A DNA stretch of 64,000 nt from Cliona cf. orientalis. Taxonomy: Eukaryota > Porifera > Demospongiae > Clionaida > Clionaidae. The stretch spans positions 4,967,669 through 5,031,668 of the forward strand of contig OZ005701.1 in assembly GCA_963930775.1 (NCBI GenBank), read 5' to 3'. The position numbers were made by a program, and so were the translations under genes. How positions within the stretch are numbered: the stretch's first letter is position 1; each line of letters opens with the position of its first letter. The notes beneath the pieces were generated by a model. The model was given only the letters and a program-made list of their open reading frames with translations, was not told where the DNA came from and searched no databases. Of the stretch, positions 8,831-21,504 are shown piece after piece.

Positions 8831-11800
8831 CTTGAACAGCCCTAGGATCCCAGTTAGGGTTGGAGGTGTTAGGATCTTCAATTGTCAGAAGGTAGTTGTT
8901 GTCTTGTCCAACTCCAAGTAGAGGTAGAGTCTCAGAGGCGAGGAACTGCTGCCACGTATAGAGTATGACAGAATCAACGCCATCACACCACAACTGATCT
9001 AAATGAGCACACAGCTTGGACAGCTACATGTAGCATAAGATAGAGGTGCAACCATGCAAGTGTGCAAGTTGAGCTCTCTAGAGTACATGCTCCATGCGCA
9101 CTGCACATTTTTTATACTACCGTAGATCTGGAAAATTTCGTGTAAAGAAACTTTCGTATGATAAATTAAAAAACTTTCGTAGGAACAACCCCTTACTACA
9201 TTATCGTTAATATATAGTGCATGCTAATTTTCGTAAGATTAATCTTCGTAGCCGCCATCGACTACGAAAATATTTTTACAACGAAAATTTCCAGATTTAC
9301 GGTAAATTATTTTACAGCCATGTACATATACAATGCATACGTCCGTACATGTTAAATAAGTTAAAGTATTGTGTCCGTAATATACAAAAAATGGTGACGC
9401 TTCCGTTCCATTCCGCCCCGTTCAGACGTCATTGCACCGTTCATGCCAGCCGTACCGTTTCCGTTCTGTATGCACACGTGCATAATTAGTAATTGCAAAA
9501 AAAAGGAAGGCCAGCTCGTCGACTCACCGACTAGAATCGATAGTTTCATACTGCTATGGTCTTCTAAACTGTTCTGGGGCACTTCATTATGCTGCTCTTC
9601 GATTTTGAGTGAGTTCTGTGATTGAGGCTCGACTGGGTTTGAAGTCTGCTATCGACGATCGATCAATTTCACATTGCCAATCGACTCTGATGGCTTCCAA
9701 ATGCGATCGCTTGGATAGATCGATGCTTCTTTTGGCTTTCTTAGGCTCTTGAGGTGTCATTTTTGTGCTAGCTACGATTGGAATAGTTAACTGCATTTTC
9801 CGTCGTGTTGGCCTCTGCCCGTCCCATTTCTATTCTTGTGCATGGGGAACGGCCATTTTACTTCCGCCTCGACGGGGCAGAGTGGAACAAAAACGTCACC
9901 TTTTTTGTCTCCTACTGTAAAAGGCGTAATTGCTTCCTAATGAGCTCATTTGTTCAAAAATTCAATTAAAACAATTATTGGAAGTAAGGGCACAGTATAG
10001 TCCACAAAAGTACACGAAGATTAAACACATACAGTGCTAAGATGTTAGTAATGGCCTAGTTGAGAAGCCTGCAATCTTCAGTTATTGACTGCTAAAGAGT
10101 AAGAATACTGATAATTAGACTCTAGTTGTCACAAACACTGTGATTTGATTGGTTAAAAACAAGGGTTCTAAGTTACTTAGAACCCCTCTACTTAGAAACC
10201 CTCTACTTAGAAAGCTAGTTCTTTAGGCAATAACATACAAGAGGTTACTAAGTAACAGCATGCTAGAGTCTAAACAAGTTAGACACTTCAGCCAATGGGA
10301 TCTACAGTCTTTAGAATACTTCAGACACTTATAAAACCCTCAGGCTTCGCCTTCGGGATTTTATATCAGTGTCTTCAGTATTCTAAATCCTGTAGATCCC
10401 TTGGCTTCAGCGTCTAACCTATATGTATAGGATCGAGAGCCTACAAGATGCCTAGAAAGTCAAACACCTAGCAGAGCGAGCCTCAGCGGGCAGATTTGAA
10501 TGTATACATGAACTTATTAGCCATCTGCTACGTGCAGTGTTCTTTTAACGTGTGGGCACATGCGGCTTCAATTAGACAATCAACGCTTACAGCATGACAC
10601 AATGCCTTTAAGTACATGTATTATTATAATTTAAATACGGATTCTAGCCATCAGCTACAAAATCATAAACCTTCCTATACCGTAGGTTGGGTTTTGAATA
10701 TTAGATTCTTTTGATTGCCAATTGCGAATTTTTTTCAAGACGCAATTCAAAAGAATCACAGGAAAAATACGACGCAATGAATAACATTACAGTAACCACA
10801 CCCCTTTTGTTCAAGCACACGTTCTCGATCTTACACGTGTTTGATCTACTTGCATACACGTACCTACAGTTGTCGATCGTCGAGATTGATTTTTCTTCAA
10901 TTCTTCAAGCTAATCGTCAATCTGCCAATAAGCAGCCAAGCGCAACTATCACTAGTCTCACCCCCAGACCCCACCCCCAAAAGGAGAAAAGGGTCTGGTA
11001 CATTGTACATATTGAGCATTTTCTTGCATGCACAGGATGCAGGTTGTCATATGACTGTCATGACAACGCATAGTTTTGGCATACATGTAGCACGCATCAA
11101 CCACTCTCACGAGCAGCAATAACAGACTATAGCGCTGTATCACATGATAATCACATGTAAGCCACATGGCGCGATTGATTGGCGCAACAGAATTCAGAAA
11201 TGCTATGTTAGCAAGCCCAAGATAGTGCTAGATGTGTACCAGACCCTTTCCTCCTTTTGGGGGTGGGGTCTGGGGACGAGACTACTATCGCTCAAGTAGT
11301 ATGGTACTCTATTAATATCCACCCCACATGCAGCCTCAAACGCCACACCTCTATAGCTAAGATTGAGGGTGTGACTTTCACGTTTGGCAATTCATATTCA
11401 TTAGAATTGCAATCTGGCTTGTATAGCACCATTCGTAATTGTTTGACTACACATTCAAACCTGACCTACATGTACAGTACATAATTCCACTCTTCTTATA
11501 CTTACAGATGAAAAATTGATCCATTTGCAAGATAATGTGTAAGACGGTGGGTCGTGGGATGGGTAGGTCACTGGTAGCTGACAGTAGAGTGACAACGGTG
11601 GAAGGTGGACTAATTCTGCCGACTTTTCAGATACTCCATGGATCTCATTAGTTGCAGCATTAGGGTGGTCTAAACAAAAGTATCCACTAATGAATATAGA
11701 GTCGGTAAACTCTGTAAGTAGGGATGGCCCAGACACTCCCATGCATGTAATACAAAACAAATAGCCCAAAAAATCAGCCAAAATAAAGGCTTTCTAACCT

Positions 11801-14800
11801 ATATTATTATACAAGTATTATATTTTGTTCCTGTACATTTGAAAAACTGTTGCACATCTTATATAGGCCTGTGTAGCTACATTGTAGGTGAAGACAGATT
11901 CTCTTTCATTGTTACTTTTGCTAGCCGTGACAATCAACTATCATTCCCTGACGATATCTGTATAGTCATCAAAACGCCAGAATAAAAACTACTTTGATAG
12001 TTGATTGTCACGGCTAGCAGATACTGTTGGACATGCATGTACACAATTATATTCCATGTACAAGTCTCCACTGCACTTTTAGCTCACCTTCTTACATGGT
12101 CTCGCAGAAGCCCCTCTTCTCTGACCATAAAATGTACAGATGTTTGAGTCGATAAGTCAATAAAAGCAGTAACCACAGAAAGCATACTAGCTATTTGTTC
12201 ATACATGTATTATGCCTATTTCTCGAGTTTCCCCTATCAACAACCAGAGAAAAGTGCAGAGATCACACACTCATTTTTCGGTTGGTAATGGTTGCTGTGC
12301 AGATCGCGACAATAAGACCGACCAGTGAGCCCCCTCTCTAGTTTTGCCCAGCGCTACATTGCATGCACAAAGGGGGGAGGGGGTGCTTTTGCCCCTCCCC
12401 CTTGGAAATTGGCCTTCCCTATATTTTATATGGGGATTGCCCCACCCCCCATATTAAAATTTGCGTTTGCCCCCTCTTGAGCGAAATTCTGAAATAAATC
12501 CTGGCATGTGTGTTTAGTATGTAATTAAAGTTATAGTTACATGGTTCGAATTTTTAAACTTTTTGTTCTTTGATGTTATTAAAATATATCGACTTCGCTG
12601 TCATGAAATGGTGCTCACTGTGCTTTTGCTTGCTACGTACCTGAAGACTCAAGCAAGCATACACTATTAACACAGCACGTACCTCATCGAGTCAGGATGC
12701 TGTACACAAGCTCCCAGACACAAAGACGTCTTTTCCCTACATACCCTGCACCTGAACATGTTTACTGTTCAAGTCTCTTCCAAGTCCGTGCATGATCTAG
12801 AAGGCACCTGGCTATATCACCATACAAACTAAAGCTTCTGTGACTGAATTGTGCACTTGAGAGCCACTGCCTGTTTACACTGTCACTGCATTGACAACTG
12901 ACCAGCAAGGCACAGGATTGTAATCGGTCATGTAGCTGAGGTAAGAGCCATGTAAACACAGACTGGTAATAGCTGCTCACTACTACATGACCACTATTCT
13001 TTATGTCCAGTATACCTCCAATGCGTACTTCCTCTCACGTGACCCTTACCATTTACCATAGGAGGGTTGCGACGGACGGACAAAAATCGCCCAACGATTG
13101 CAGTAACTCCTCTGCCTATGCTTTGCAGCGAGGGTTAATAAACTCCATAAGTTGTCACTACACACTGTGCATTGCCATATCAGCACATGCCATGTCACCT
13201 GTGATAGCGCATTCCTGCAGTCAACAATTCAAATCAGGGTTTCATTTAGGATTTTTGTCAAGGAGGGCAAACGCGACAATTCCAGAGTTAAGGGGGGGGC
13301 AAAGACTATAGTATATTTTTTCATCCGTGAAGAATGACGTTGTGCTCATTAACTTCATTATATTATTAGGGGAGTCTGGGGGTATGCTCCCCCAGAAAAT
13401 TTTTTTAATGTTTCAACCTCTGAGACTGTTTCTGGTGGCTTCTGAGCACTCGGATGGGGAAAGTCTGTCAGTAATATCCACTGGTTCCCCTCTATTTCAA
13501 GTCAAATGTTGCAAGGATGTGGGATGTGTTTCTTACCGCGCGTAGCGCGAAGCTTCAGCTAATTTATGGCTTAAAAATGAGCAAAACTGCCACTTTGGAC
13601 ACTTTCACCGTTTAAATATTTTACTTGTGCATGTATTACATTGTGCATTGTGCATGTATTAATTATCCCGGCAGACTCCGTGAACGTAGTTTGGGTATAG
13701 GGTTGACTTTCGCCCTTAAAGCTGGAGGGGGGGAGTTCGGGTGCCTAAGGGTGGTCGTAGCTCAGTGGTAGAGCGCTGGTGGCTCAAGCCAGTGGCCCTG
13801 GGTTCGATTCCCGGTGGCTGCCCGGATTTTTTCTCTTCCAGCTAGCTTTAGGATGTAGATGGGGTGATGAGAGTGTGTGTGCCCATCCTTGTTAAGCTAA
13901 GAACTTTCATGTATGGATGGTGGCTACTCTCAAGGGGGGCAGCCAGTTTCCAAGAGGGGGGGGGGGGGCGAGTGACCCCTCCCCCCCCCAATGAAACCCT
14001 GCAAATGTCACATGACAGCTCACACCCCATTGGCTCTATGCAAATTCCTCTAAAGTACATGAAAATCATAGACCTTCCTCCGTGTGCTGGTGATGCAATA
14101 CATCCAGCGCTGTGGAAAAGGGAGAGGTCTGGGTTCGACACTATGATGATGTCATATGCATTACATGTATATATATGGGAACAAGCAGATAGTACGTTAA
14201 TTATTTATCGAACCGTTCTCTCTTCTCAAGTAAGAGGGGCTAGCCCACAAGACTAGCCACTAGGCATACACACTGGCTTACTTGATATATTTGAGTCAGT
14301 GAGTATGGTATCGAATTGCTCCACATACATTATTTTAACATGGTAAAATTGTTATATGATTCATATGCACCTTTAAAAATTGCTTTGGGTTTCATTTTCG
14401 TAACTCTCACATGAATGGGGTCCTTCAATTGAATGCTAATACTCAGGGTTCCAGACAGCCTACCTGCAGCGACATCGTTAAAATGCACCATTTTACCCCC
14501 AGAACATCATTAAAATAGCCTCAACACCCCCCAAGACTTCATCAAATCAAGCTACCCCCTCAGGATACAGTTATCGTTCCTCAACAGGGGTGTATCTTTA
14601 TTAACTGGAATAGCCCAATATAGGAACACACAACCACCAGTTAGGCCATACCAAGTTAATTTTTTTGTTTCTCGGATTTGGCAGGTCTGTTTTTGGCTGA
14701 TTAGAAAAAAAAATAAAAATTTTTTAATTAACATTCCTCACATTATGATAGTGATAGGCCAGGAGTACTCGTTAGAAAGAGCACTCTTGGTCTGCTACTG

Positions 14801-15584: not shown

Positions 15585-16063
15585 GTAAGTGACGTTAAAC
15601 TGGTGTATTCTATTGGGAATTTGAGTGGTGTAGGCTGGAAGAGGGGAGAGTGAGTGCTCGATATTAATTATAACGCAGTGTCTAGAGTACCGGCAAATTT
15701 ATGTACAAATTTATATTGCCATATGCAGGAGGGGGCGGGGACTAGGGCTACGTAAGAGTACAGTATTTTATATGGACTTACCAGCACTATAATGCTTAAA
15801 CGAGGAGGCGGGGTATAAAAGGGCCCGCCATGGACGGAAGCAATGTTTAATTTTACCACATCCGTCACATGAGCCAATATGGCTGTATTACAAAAAATTC
15901 GCGAGTTATCTGCCATGCCATGCCATGGCAATGGCGCCAGCTATTTTACACATGACAGACACACAGTACAGTACAGCGAACCAGCGTTGGCGCCATAGCG
16001 CGAATATAAAGAAAGCGCGAGGCACCTCAGAGACACCTTTTCGAAGGCACCTGTAAGGAAAAA

Positions 16064-19000
16064 ATGGCTACTTTGAATGAGCAGAGAAAGAAGCGCGCGA
16101 GACTCGGATTTCGCTATACGATGGAGCTGAACTTCACCAGTGAGGATAGCAAGAAGTCGTTCTTGTCGAGGGTGGAGAGCGCTAAGCTGAGACTCGCTCC
16201 CAGAGGCTCACCGCCGCTGGACAGTCGCGAGCTACTTAGCTCTCTATTGGATTTGGCTGAAGCCACTCCTCCACCTGCTACCACGTGCACTGGAGATGAA
16301 TTTCGAAGCCAGGCAGTCCCTACAGGATCTATGACAATGCTGGAAAACTCAGGTGTGTATTAGATTCACGTAATAGCTTAGTCATGAACAACAAACTAAC
16401 TATTGTGCTTAGGATTCTTTGTACCCGGTGATGAAGGCAATGATGAAGCCCAATCATTGTTTGTTTGTGAGCGCAAGACGTTTGAGGATCTTTGCGCTGG
16501 GCTCACACAACCATGTCAGTGCCAAGCTAGTGCACGGAAGATGATCAAGACTGTTCAGGTGTGCATAGTCCATTCAAGTGAACTTATCAAATATTTAGTT
16601 GGTGTTTATGCGTGTACCTCAGAGAGGACATGTCCTTCGTGTCGAGTTTCAGTGTCAGCAGTGTAAACAGAAGCAGCGGTGGGCCAGTTCACGAACACTT
16701 GGAGGACGCTACCTTATTAACCAGAAGTAAGTATCCATTACTTTCCATTACAAGAGCTAGGTACTGAAATGTTTTCAGGATCGTGCATTCGTTCACCTGT
16801 GCTGGTATTCTGCCGAGCCAGTACATCCATTTTTCCACTCATGCAAACTTGGGCACACTGGGGCCATGGTATATCAATTCGGGTGAGTTTGCAAAAGAAA
16901 TGGGGTGATGGTCGATTGACTCTTTGCTATTTGCTAGTCTACAAAAGTGGTGGGTACTTGGAAGCAGTGAACACCTAGCCTCATCCCCAGGCCACTCCCA
17001 CGTTTTCAATGTTGCACGCAGAAAAGAGGGAGAGCCTGGGAGGCGAAATCACGTGAGCGCGATTGCGCAATGGCTTTGTACACAAAGCATAGAACCGTAC
17101 CCGAACCGTACCGATAGCACAAACGGCCCTATTTCGCCGTTTGTTAGCCTTTGCTACTGTTTCAGGGGAGTCACTCGAGACGTTTACAGCTACTAAAAGT
17201 GTTCAACTCGATCGCTGTGTCGATTTGTCTGTTGTGGCCGCTCGGATCGATCATCTAGTCTGAAGTCTCTAGTCACGATCGACGTCATCTCGAGTGTTGG
17301 ATGTCAAATGTAGTCGTGCACTGGCCAGGTGAGCGAAGATAACGCCCGCACTTTCCTTCAAAACATCGTTTTTCACGGTTCGGGTACGGTTCTATGCTTT
17401 GTGTACAAAGCGATTGTGCAATCACGCTCACGTGATTTCGCCTCCCAGGCCTTCCCTCTTTTCTGCGTGCAACATTGAAAACGTGGGAGTGGCCTGGGGA
17501 CGAGGCTAGTGAACACCTGTGCCAAGTTATCGATGATGACAGCTATCACAGAAGTGAAAGCATTGCCAAATTACACTGCTAGTGGTGAGGTATGTGCACA
17601 TTTATAACCCTGCTACAAATTAATGATTAATATTATTATTGTATCTCCCAACAGTGGGTTATTACTGATGCTCGACACGACTCGACATCCAATGCCTTCC
17701 ATACCACCGTCCCCTGCTTGTCTGGAAGGTAATTATGTGTTCAATTGTTATTGTGAATAGGAGTATAGAACATGATACGTTACATGTACACATACGTTAT
17801 TGTATTATAATTATTATGATAGCACAAAACGAATTCTTGGCTGTGCAACAGTATCCAGAAGGGAGCATGCCATCGCTCAAACAAGGGAACTTGAGGCCAC
17901 CAAAGCAGTACTGCCTCAAGTCCTTGAACAAGGTGGTATAATATTTCATGTATTTATGTGAACATTGATTATTGAATTAGATCTATACATGTATGCAGAC
18001 CTGAAGGTTGTGGAAGTAGCGCATGATAATGCAGCAACAGTCAAGAATTACATCACCGAGGATTTACATCTCCTGAACTCATACGACACGTGGCATGGTA
18101 CAGTTACTGATTCCCAATACTTGTGGTGGTGTTCAGTGTGCTTTAATTAGGCACCAAAAATGTAGCAAAGGGCATGAGGAAGATCTCATGTGGTACCAAA
18201 AAGACAGAAGGAAAATCTTGGTTTGTAGAGTTATCAGACAAATGTAAGTTACCAACTCGTGAGTCTCCACCATTATGATATTCTACATGCATGTACATGT
18301 AATTAGGCAAAAGTACAAAAGTTCATCTGTACTACTGCATGAAAAACTGTGCCCAGTCTCCAACAAAGCTTAGGGAGAGCATTTTAAACATTATTAGCCA
18401 CTACTAGGTGAGTCAGAAGCATAGAGTACCCTTCTTATGTATGACTTTACACAATTCTTCTTGCTATACAAAGAACAAGCACTCCCAGTGCCACGAAGAA
18501 TCCTTCTGTAGACGCTCTGGGTACAGTCCCACAAAGTTGCAACTCACCGATCCTGCCGCAATACAGGCATATGAGAAGGCACTGAAGGCCACTCTCATTT
18601 ACAAGAATGCGGAATCATACTGTCGGGTAAGTAATTTTGAAAGATTTATTTTACGACGTGTTGAGCAAGTTATTCTATCATTAGTGTCGGGATACTTTCT
18701 GGATCGAGTCGTTCAACCATCAGTTGCTCACTTACCTTCCCAAACGTATTCATTTTGGCTCCACCACCTTCAAGATGAGAATGAACCTTGCTATTATGGA
18801 TTGGGTATAATAATGCTCATAATTTATTGTGTTCACACATGTTGACTCCCCCCCCCCTCCCTCCCGGCACACTAATATCTAGAATGAGAATGTACAAAGA
18901 GCCAGCACAAGTGAGCATTTTGTTTTGGATATGAGGAGACCCGACCGAAGAACTCCCATGAAGGTGCTAGTCAAGAAGACTTTTAATTTTGTTGGTGATA

Positions 19001-19397
19001 TCTGGAGGACATACACTCGTTGGAAGGTTACTGACCTCAGGTGAGTGCATCTGTATGGTAGATAATGGTGTGGCACTTCATGTACAGTATTATTGTGTGT
19101 ATACACATGTTCACATACACTTGCATGTACATGTACATGTATTATGCATGTTTGCATGTATCTCGCCCTTGCTCCCTCCCTTTCTCCCCCTTCTAAGTGA
19201 ATCCTAACCTGAAGTTATATTGAGGTTGGAGAGAGAGTGACATAGTGTATACCACAGTGTTTTTCTTTTCAAAATCTTATAGGGAAGTTGACGAGAACGA
19301 CAGTGATGTGGATGTGGGTGATGAGGAGGATGATGTATTGGCTGATGGGGAAGGTTTACCGGAGGATGAAGTTGATGAGGTGGAACAGCAAGAATAA
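16064..19397 (+). pseudogene. DARHDST-family conserved gene, 14 exons, broken by a transposon and a nonsense codon
   Basis: Exons: 16064-16352, 16413-16558, 16623-16726, 16779-16882, 16938-17589 (with insert 16976-17508), 17655-17728, 17823-17932, 17999-18097, 18151-18243, 18307-18407, about 18474-18626, 18685-18804, 18883-19040 and 19283-19397. All borders are GT/AG and phases close; without the insert and one duplication the length is 1776 nt (591 codons plus stop). Landmarks are a basic start (EQRKKRARLGFRYTMEL), CQQCKQKQRWASS, HSFTCAGILPSQYIHF, WVITDARHDSTSNAFHTT, NSYDTWHG, YYCMKNC, AYEKALKATLIYKNAESYC, FWIESFNHQLLTYLPKRIHF and an acidic tail. I recognise this as a widespread, uncharacterised invertebrate/fish family, possibly transposon-related by its DDE-like layout, but no function is established. 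The TAG at 18405-18407 stands where the family has Gln, directly before the donor. Confidence 0.85.
16976..17508. mobile_element. TIR transposon, 533 bp, inserted in a coding exon (9-bp TSD)
   Basis: The target duplication GTGAACACC is exact (16967-16975 and 17509-17517). Ends TAGCCTCATCCCCAGGCCAC and the inverse of GTGGCCTGGGGACGAGGCTA continue as about 135-bp inverted repeats differing at only a few positions. There is no transposase. A 9-bp duplication with long TIRs suggests a Mutator-like non-autonomous element; that class is inferred. Confidence 0.9.
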
Positions 19398-19471
19398 AAT
19401 AATGAACTACATGTAGCAACATGTAAGTGTGTGAAACCGCCTAATAGTACATGTACATATGAGTGTGATTA

Positions 19472-20226
19472 TTAGAAACGTGATGATGGTTGGAAGTCGG
19501 TGTAAGGGACTCCGGGTGGATTGGGAAATCGACCACGCACCTCCTGAAAAGATGACACTTGTTATTGTAAGTTGCTATGGTTGTAGACTACCTATACTTA
19601 CCCTTACTACACATGCAGGCAGCACATCCCTGGTGTCCAGTACACTCGTCTTTGTGGATTTATAGTGTGCATATTCGGGATGGTTCCACACTCCCAGCTG
19701 ATTCAGGAAGGTCCAAAATCTCCTATACAGAGTGTAGCGTTTGGAATTGTTTGCGAGGCTGGGTGCCGAGGAGCCCCTCACCCAGCTGGGTGGTCGGTCT
19801 ACTACACAGGGGGAGAGGTGGCAGTTACAGACAGGCATTGGGTCCATTGAGCTCGGGAGGATTGTACCTACATGGACCTACGAAGATAAGTTACCACTAT
19901 ATGTAATGTATAGAGTTCTGGAAAATTGGTGATAATGTTTAGTAACTGCAGGATAACCTTTCTTGGACTTCTCTGCTGTGGGAGCAGTGACTTGGCCAGT
20001 AGCAGAAGAGCTGGAAGAACTGGTAGACTGACAGCTGTCAAGGATACACCTCGTGGATGAGAGTTCTATCTCTGGATAGGAGGCTACCAAGACTCTGAAC
20101 CCCTCCAAAAAGTCATTTGGAGGCTGTTCCTTGTAGTATACTTCAAGCTAATGGATATTTAGTTATTATTTATTATGTTTTGTTGATATTCAGCTAGCTC
20201 ACCTTGAGTTTTGCCTGTGAAGCCAT
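19472..20226 (-). CDS. Protein with P2X7-C-like tail, four exons
   Basis: Exons are 20203-20226 (MASQAKLK), 19958-20147, 19602-19867 and 19472-19543; every junction is GT/AG with matching phase, giving 183 aa. Exon 2 carries an acidic/aromatic start (YYKEQPPNDFLEGF) and a Ser-rich linker. Exon 3 carries a Cys/His stretch (VCNCHLSPCVV) and YTLYRRFWTFLNQLG. Exons 3-4 end DVLPACVVREVRGRFPNP then PGVPYTDF. That ending resembles the P2RX7 C-terminal domain (IPSCVV-IR--FP---Y-GF), found in many short invertebrate proteins lacking the channel. The usual CC pair is not obvious. It ends 75 bp from the stop of the plus-strand DARHDST gene (tail to tail). Function is unknown. Confidence 0.75.
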
Positions 20227-21504
20227 TATTTGCTAGGTTTTTTTGTTATGAAACTGTCAGACAGCAGCTGTTCAAATTTCTATTGTTTGGCGCGCTTGTA
20301 TGGTACCGCGCATGCTATGTAAAGTGCATTGTGAGGGCTTCACAGTGGTAAGAGAATGGCTACATAGCCATGGCAAACTCGCCGAATTTGAATCTTGGCG
20401 GCGAGGTCAAAGGTCGTGCCCTGGGCACGCGCCTTAAATACCCGCAGTCCGCAAACGATCGCGCGTTGGAAACTTTCGCGTATTGCAATATTTAACCCCA
20501 ACTTCCTCGTTTAAATTGCGGTGCCGGTACCGGCACTGTAGACACAGCAATAATATAATTAAGATCATCCAATTCTGGCAATGTGTTATACATGTATATC
20601 AGGTAATCAGTGATTCCTCAGACCAAATAATGGGGATGTCAGTATTTCCATCCCTTCATATACATTATCCAGAACAAGGGTATAATATAGCGTATTAGCC
20701 GCCATATATCCGTTTGTACGTAAATCCAGCACCCCCTGCGCCAATCATCGGTATCTAATTTACGACGTATTTTTGGGATTATATGGACATCGCTGAAGTG
20801 TTTATGGACCTAAAACTTTCAGTAGCCATTGCATACCAAGGAAAGTAAATAGGAAGGAAGAATAATATCACTAGCAAGAAGGTTTGGTGAAGAAACTCTA
20901 TGCCAAATTCAATCAGAATCAGATGAAGCACCTGGTGTCTAGAGGGAGAAACAGCTCATGGCGGCTTTACCGTGGCCTAGCAAGAGCTAAAAGATTATTA
21001 TTCCATCATAGTCGCTCCTGAGGTGGAAGCTGATGCCTAGAACACATACAAGTCCTTCATGATTTTATCGTACAGTTGAAACGGCTCTAGTGTCGATTTT
21101 CCACCACATTCACAGCTGCCATTCAAAGATGAAGCAAGCAATCGATATAATATATTATGAGAAGACAGATATAGTGAGAGGACATCCTGAGGCATCTGGG
21201 GATATTTTTCTATAATGTTATGGCAAGTAAGGCAGCAGTAAAAAGCTCGAGAAGGTCCAGGTGCTGATAAATGGTGCATTTCAGTGCCGATAGTACATGC
21301 TGGTTGACGATAAAGGTATTGTGATGTCTGTGCATTAGCCCTCATATAATGTGTCATGTAGCTCATTGATTAATAGGGCCTACCTCTCTGGAGTCTAGCT
21401 AGTGAAAGCCTACTTCATGAGCTTTCTTTCGGTGCAAGAACCAAGTTCATACATCATTCTTGGCAGGAGTTACAAATTGGGAAACTTTGTACGCTGATAA
21501 ATGG
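20227..21504. other. CpG-rich promoter side, then no supported gene
   Basis: 20,280-20,540 is CG-rich and is probably the promoter side of the minus-strand gene. A minus-strand open frame at 21037-21366 (109 aa, with CCLTCHNII and CECGG) has paired cysteines but no start context or known family. I do not call it a gene. Confidence 0.35.

Follow-up and report, generated by a model that had tools for sequence, protein, structure and literature searches.

A probable nested insertion of a young MITE in the multicopy transposase gene of a Kolobok-like transposon in the sponge Cliona cf. orientalis

Exon 5 of a gene of Cliona cf. orientalis, here called the DARHDST gene, was found to be interrupted by a stretch of 533 bp. 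The locus raises the question of what this stretch is, what kind of gene it interrupts, and whether a working gene was broken by its arrival, as an earlier note on this DNA had proposed. The window, that is, the whole stretch of 64,000 nucleotides of contig OZ005701.1 that was analysed, was compared with the genome from which it comes (216.8 Mb in 149 contigs). The insert and its borders were resolved into the following features.

16976..17508, plus strand: non-coding element of MITE type, 533 bp, with the ends TAGCCTC(A)TCCCC ... GGGGACGAGGCTA
16976..17109, plus strand: left terminal inverted repeat, 134 bp, with 3 mismatches between the arms in the consensus
17375..17508, minus strand: right terminal inverted repeat, 134 bp, with 3 mismatches between the arms in the consensus
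17110..17374, plus strand: middle of the element, 265 bp, matching only at copies of the element
16967..16975, plus strand: left copy of the target-site duplication, GTGAACACC, set by the letters of the window and by other copies
17509..17517, plus strand: right copy of the target-site duplication, GTGAACACC, set in the same way

In the window copy, the inverted arms of the 533-bp element were 96% complementary. The 9-mer GTGAACACC occurred twice in the whole window, at 16967-16975 and 17509-17517, and at least two matches to it were also obtained in 10 of 100 shuffles; such a pair is thus not rare by chance, and its evidential weight lies in its position and in the other copies of the element. 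The direct repeat at the window copy was 11 nt long (AGTGAACACCT) because the terminal T and A of the element match the neighbouring bases, so that this copy by itself allows a duplication of 9, 10 or 11 bp. From the other copies, the ends were placed at TAGCCTC...GAGGCTA and the duplication was set at 9 bp, and the exact 9-bp duplication described in the earlier note was thereby confirmed. The longest stop-to-stop frames over the insert extended into its flanks, and no frame of transposase length was seen. The insert is short, non-coding and multicopy, with terminal inverted repeats and a target-site duplication of fixed length, and is a MITE by these features.

At least 31 near-full copies of the element were found in the genome, with 83–100% identity (40 of 757 candidates scored). 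Thirty of them were retrieved, and 28, including the window copy, were aligned; L021 was omitted for its missing left end and L028, a 635-bp copy with an exact 9-bp duplication, for its extra sequence. Exact 9-bp duplications flanked 21 of the 28 aligned copies, and two more (L020 and L030) had 9-bp flanks with one mismatch, while identical 9-bp flanks between different loci were found in 0 of 756 cross-locus comparisons. The other copies among the seven with no exact duplication were L008, L014 and L024, with 8 bp in common once shifted, L029, with two mismatches in its 9-bp flanks, and L023, whose end was eroded. The window copy differed from the 28-copy consensus by 4 substitutions in 533 positions (0.75%). 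One of these differences was common to seven other copies; the other three, of which one was private, were C-to-T or G-to-A substitutions at CG steps. Judged from its sequence, the 533-bp insert is young.

Elements of other lengths shared the same ends. When 60 of 98 loci and the window were scanned, exact 9-bp duplications were found at same-ended elements of 46, 635 and 641 bp, and 9-bp duplications with one mismatch at those of 334 and 478 bp. Shared ends and 9-bp repeats in elements of such different length suggest one mobilising enzyme. The 18-bp end TAGCCTCGTCCCCAGGCC had 581 and 594 exact matches in the genome (1175 in total) versus 0 for the reversed control. The 265-bp middle had 36 matches in the genome (all 36 candidates scored), each of them where the arms of the element also matched; as every match was a copy of the element, no captured parent gene of the Pack-MULE kind was evident. 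No named family with these ends was found in the literature, and the 13-base end string occurred in none of the papers searched.

Very short elements, hardly more than two TAGCCTCGTCCCC ends, were also observed. Twelve inward end pairs spanning 54–97 bp were present among the first 100 listed of the 1175 exact end matches, for example C1:8714883-8714936, C1:10071090-10071145 and C1:8101954-8102011, and the 46-bp element, which has an exact 9-bp duplication, lies at L007:2572-2617. At C1:319528-323446, considered as a candidate for the autonomous partner of the MITE, a lone end is followed 3.8 kb on by a complete 89-bp element with both ends. The window itself contains, at 11267-11284 on the minus strand, a diverged end of the 533-bp element's family (TAGTCTCGTCCCCAGACC, 2 mismatches).

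The interrupted gene was modelled with 14 exons, as follows.

16064..19397, plus strand: transposase gene (the DARHDST gene), 14 exons with one internal TAG; coding sequence of 1776 nt without the insert
16938..17589, plus strand: exon 5, interrupted, made up of 16938-16975 and 17518-17589 plus the second 9-bp copy
18405..18407, plus strand: nonsense codon TAG, private to this copy, at codon 410, with which exon 10 ends

With AG/GT borders and with the element and one 9-bp copy removed, the model gave 1776 nt, which is divisible by three and reproduces the length reported earlier. The AG/GT borders were kept for most exons in most paralogues, which supports the exon model; the exceptions were lesioned copies such as g4, g9 and g11, and the edges of the stretches examined. 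The 1776-nt frame is not open, as it contains the in-frame TAG at codon 410, where all 13 paralogues covering the codon have CAG. With the insert in place, the frame stops as soon as it enters the element, whose first three bases (16976-16978) are TAG. The window copy of the transposase gene is thus broken twice, and both lesions, the insert and the exon-10 TAG, were private to it among the paralogues examined. Given the private TAG, divisibility by three is no proof that the gene worked before the insertion.

Fourteen paralogues were examined, and the insert was absent from all 12 that covered the insertion site; g8 showed no exons 2-8 in the stretch examined, and in g9 the region was deleted. 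L060, a more diverged and partly deleted relative of the surrounding transposon described below, the distant relatives L031 and L033, and further partial matches of the protein search were not counted among the 14. Over the joined empty site, the nearest paralogue, C1:22278k, and the window copy agreed in all 159 nt compared. A relative with the same insert and an intact frame, a case raised in the earlier note, was not found among the paralogues, all 12 sites being empty. That note had called the insert a 533-bp transposon in a coding exon, a description borne out by the inverted repeats, the many copies, the exact 9-bp flanks and the empty paralogous sites. Its statement that the insertion post-dates a working gene stood in one part, since the insert is younger than the gene copy that carries it (empty in 12/12 paralogues). 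Some other copies of the gene had no lesion in the exons examined: g2, g3, g6, g7, g10 and g12 (6 of 14) showed no stop or frameshift in the parts of exons 2-14 covered, exon 2 being covered only in part for g10, and g12 having a 3-nt difference. Seven of the 14 paralogues were lesioned, and g8 was only partly present.

The 533 to 542 bp might also be a spliced intron or an intron-like insert, with the protein still being made, and 14 of the 787 GT..AG choices around the insert do leave exon 5 open and in phase. However, with each of the 14, exon 5 loses codons or has them changed, and the TAG at 18405-18407 stays in every one. The element, flanked by the 9-bp duplication, begins with TAG and ends with CTA, where an intron would have GT...AG; it is unlike the 13 introns of the model, 12 of which are 52–94 nt long and one 242 nt; and it is absent from the 12 paralogues covering the site. 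An ordinary intron was rejected on its bounds, its length and the empty paralogues, and the intron reading as a whole is highly improbable.

The nature of the gene was indicated by its surroundings, in which two further features were recognised.

15796..20514, plus strand: surrounding DNA transposon, with TTAA at both ends and 24-nt terminal inverted repeats that are 79% complementary
19472..20226, minus strand: second putative gene of the surrounding transposon, about 181 aa, 4 exons by predicted splicing

A search of the sponge's own genome with the protein of exons 6 to the start of 14 revealed many copies, and at least 14 close copies of the surrounding transposon were dispersed in the genome. 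Nucleotide similarity between copies began at 15796 (two copies) and ended at 20514 or at most 4 bases later (eleven copies). These limits stand at TTAAACGAGGA and TCCTCGTTTAA, and the flanks outside them differed between the copies compared. TTAA was present at 15796-15799 and 20511-20514, and also at all 11 other right ends and both other left ends compared. The length of the transposon was 4.7 kb with the insert and 4.2 kb without it.

The protein of exons 6 to the start of 14 matched PF20700 (Mutator-like transposase) with an E value of 1.6e-5 and 24.5 bits, below the cut-off of 26.5, and that of exons 1-4 matched the same family with an E value of 0.002 and 17.5 bits, also below the curated cut-off. 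The search of the host transposase against NCBIfam returned 0 families, and that against PDB nothing meaningful (best E 0.21). The motifs DARHDS, HDNA, DTWH and ESFNHQ are located at residues 256, 321, 342 and 469. Of two more distant relatives, both retain DTWH and ESFNHQ, and one also retains DARHDS but has HDMQ in place of HDNA. The order of the motifs agrees with that of a DDE transposase with the DxxH signature, the putative catalytic residues being assigned by motif. Because of the many copies, the transposon ends and the transposase motifs, the interrupted DARHDST gene is identified, at the level of sequence, as the transposase gene of the TTAA-flanked DNA transposon.

These results bear on the possibility that an ordinary host gene, otherwise in working order, was lost to a recent insertion that may still segregate in the population. 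Such a knockout would accord with an insertion that is real and young and with an empty-site length that is a multiple of three. However, at least 14 close paralogues of the gene exist, it lies between transposon ends and encodes transposase motifs, and the window copy has a second, private stop. As to segregation, one haplotype only of the flank was assembled: a second haplotype was not found, the right flank having one full-length match in the assembly among the best 40 of 312 candidates scored. The loss of a working host gene is therefore very unlikely, and the working gene of the earlier note, if meant as a host gene, was not upheld, since the gene encodes the transposase of a TTAA-flanked transposon, is present in many copies and carries a private TAG besides.

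Beyond the host transposon, the window contains a repeat of about 820 bp at approximately 20685-21504, which was found nearly full-length at 79–83% in at least 37 other places and in part in 2 (40 of 312 candidates scored). A tRNA-Glu (CTC) gene lies at 13751-13823 on the plus strand. Two of the related loci, L039 (2291-2623) and L037 (528-883), have extra stretches of their own of about 330–350 bp near the position of window 19654-19676, and that of L039 has a 6-nt overlap resembling a duplication.

The surrounding transposon was compared with Kolobok elements, which have been reported from sponges among other animals (PMC9587614). Like the Kolobok elements described there, it has TTAA at both ends, a second gene on the opposite strand, and a transposase that bears the DxxH signature (C/DxxH between the second D and E), with cysteines lying between this signature and the E. 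However, Kolobok termini are given in the same source as 5'-RR ... YY-3' inside TTAA, whereas those of the surrounding transposon are AC...GT. The second genes may also differ: the KolX accessory protein is assigned there to the Kol0 lineage, KolX resembling a P2X7 region (PMC9587614), whereas the second protein of the surrounding transposon had no family match above cut-off and no P2X7-type match in Pfam or PDB. A KolX identity for the minus-strand gene found no support in these searches. On its TTAA ends and motifs, not on phylogeny, the surrounding transposon is classed as Kolobok-like and is not filed as a member, because the AC...GT termini do not fit RR...YY.

As both the insert and its host are DNA transposons, and as the Pfam match of the host transposase, though weak, is to a Mutator-like family, the insert might be a deletion derivative of the surrounding transposon, moved by the very transposase that it interrupts. 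Against this, the ends are unrelated (TAGCCTCGTCCCC versus ACGAGGA) and the duplications differ (9 bp versus TTAA). A self-derived MITE was rejected on these two differences and is hardly credible at all.

A mobiliser of another kind was sought in the insert's own family. MULEs are described as having target-site duplications of 8–11 bp and long terminal inverted repeats (PMC6446971). The insert resembles the MULEs of that description in its target-site duplication of 9 bp and its inverted repeats of 134 bp. From the 9-bp duplication and the long inverted repeats, and from those two alone, we infer by analogy that its mobiliser would be Mutator-like. The stretch of the inner repeat was found at 152 places in the genome with at most 2 mismatches. 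Among 100 listed of these places, there were 8 inward-facing neighbours 5.8–12.6 kb apart; within 25 kb, by comparison, the same 100 places gave a single outward pair and no neighbours on the same strand. The eight long inward pairs may include autonomous relatives. The genome was searched for transposase domains (in one of the searches, 150 of 153 candidates scored), and the listed matches were compared with the pairs by eye. Unlike what would be expected of autonomous MULEs, the eight pairs had no listed match to PF10551 or PF20700 inside them, and none to PF18758, PF12762 or PF21787 either, though introns may hide domains. One match to PF21787, at C1:32268981, lay about 260 bp outside the end pair C1:32262882-32268720.

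Two candidates for an autonomous partner, C1:14310397-14315380 and C1:6148885-6155009, had matching inverted ends, but their 9-bp flanks did not match when compared by eye. At C1:27588022-27608681, inverted ends of the 533-bp element's family stand 20.7 kb apart, with KDZ stretches inside at 27603006-27603656. The KDZ sequence was taken as a passenger and not as the mobiliser, because three other places carry the same stretches and score equally or nearly so. It is conceivable, though unlikely, that the members of about 6–13 kb in this abundant end-family carry a little-known, 9-bp-duplicating transposase outside the five tested families, moving elements down to 46 bp.

With high confidence, the locus is explained as a nested insertion, in which a young MITE would have entered one copy of the multicopy transposase gene of a Kolobok-like transposon. 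The TTAA-flanked transposon, with its 14-exon DDE transposase gene, first inserted at this locus, as is shown by the TTAA at its ends and by its dispersed relatives, of which there are at least 14. Later, the 533-bp non-autonomous element, which belongs to a different family, would have entered exon 5, its transposase presumably being supplied in trans. The staggered 9-bp cut would then have been filled in to leave GTGAACACC on both sides, a step shown by the empty paralogous sites and by the other copies, and the first bases of the element, TAG, end the reading frame at once. Separately, before or after the MITE, CAG changed to TAG in exon 10, giving the second stop.

Nesting of this kind was described in transposase-bearing MULEs of maize and rice, where nested transposons, one MITE included, were present in more than one third of 530 and 476 candidates (PMC3903597). 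As in those elements, a transposon is here nested inside a transposase-bearing element, but it interrupts a Kolobok-like element instead of a plant MULE.

The finding is therefore read as an ordinary nested insertion, not as the loss of a useful gene, and it matters little, transposase copies being commonly broken by nested insertions. It is a clean textbook case: one genome has both filled and empty sites, the insert is young, other copies fix its duplication at 9 bp, and the transposase gene carries a further stop, independent of the insert. It also carries a warning, in that a length divisible by three is not the same as an open frame. As by-products, it provides a defined MITE family and, in the long end pairs, places in which the transposase of the MITE may be sought.
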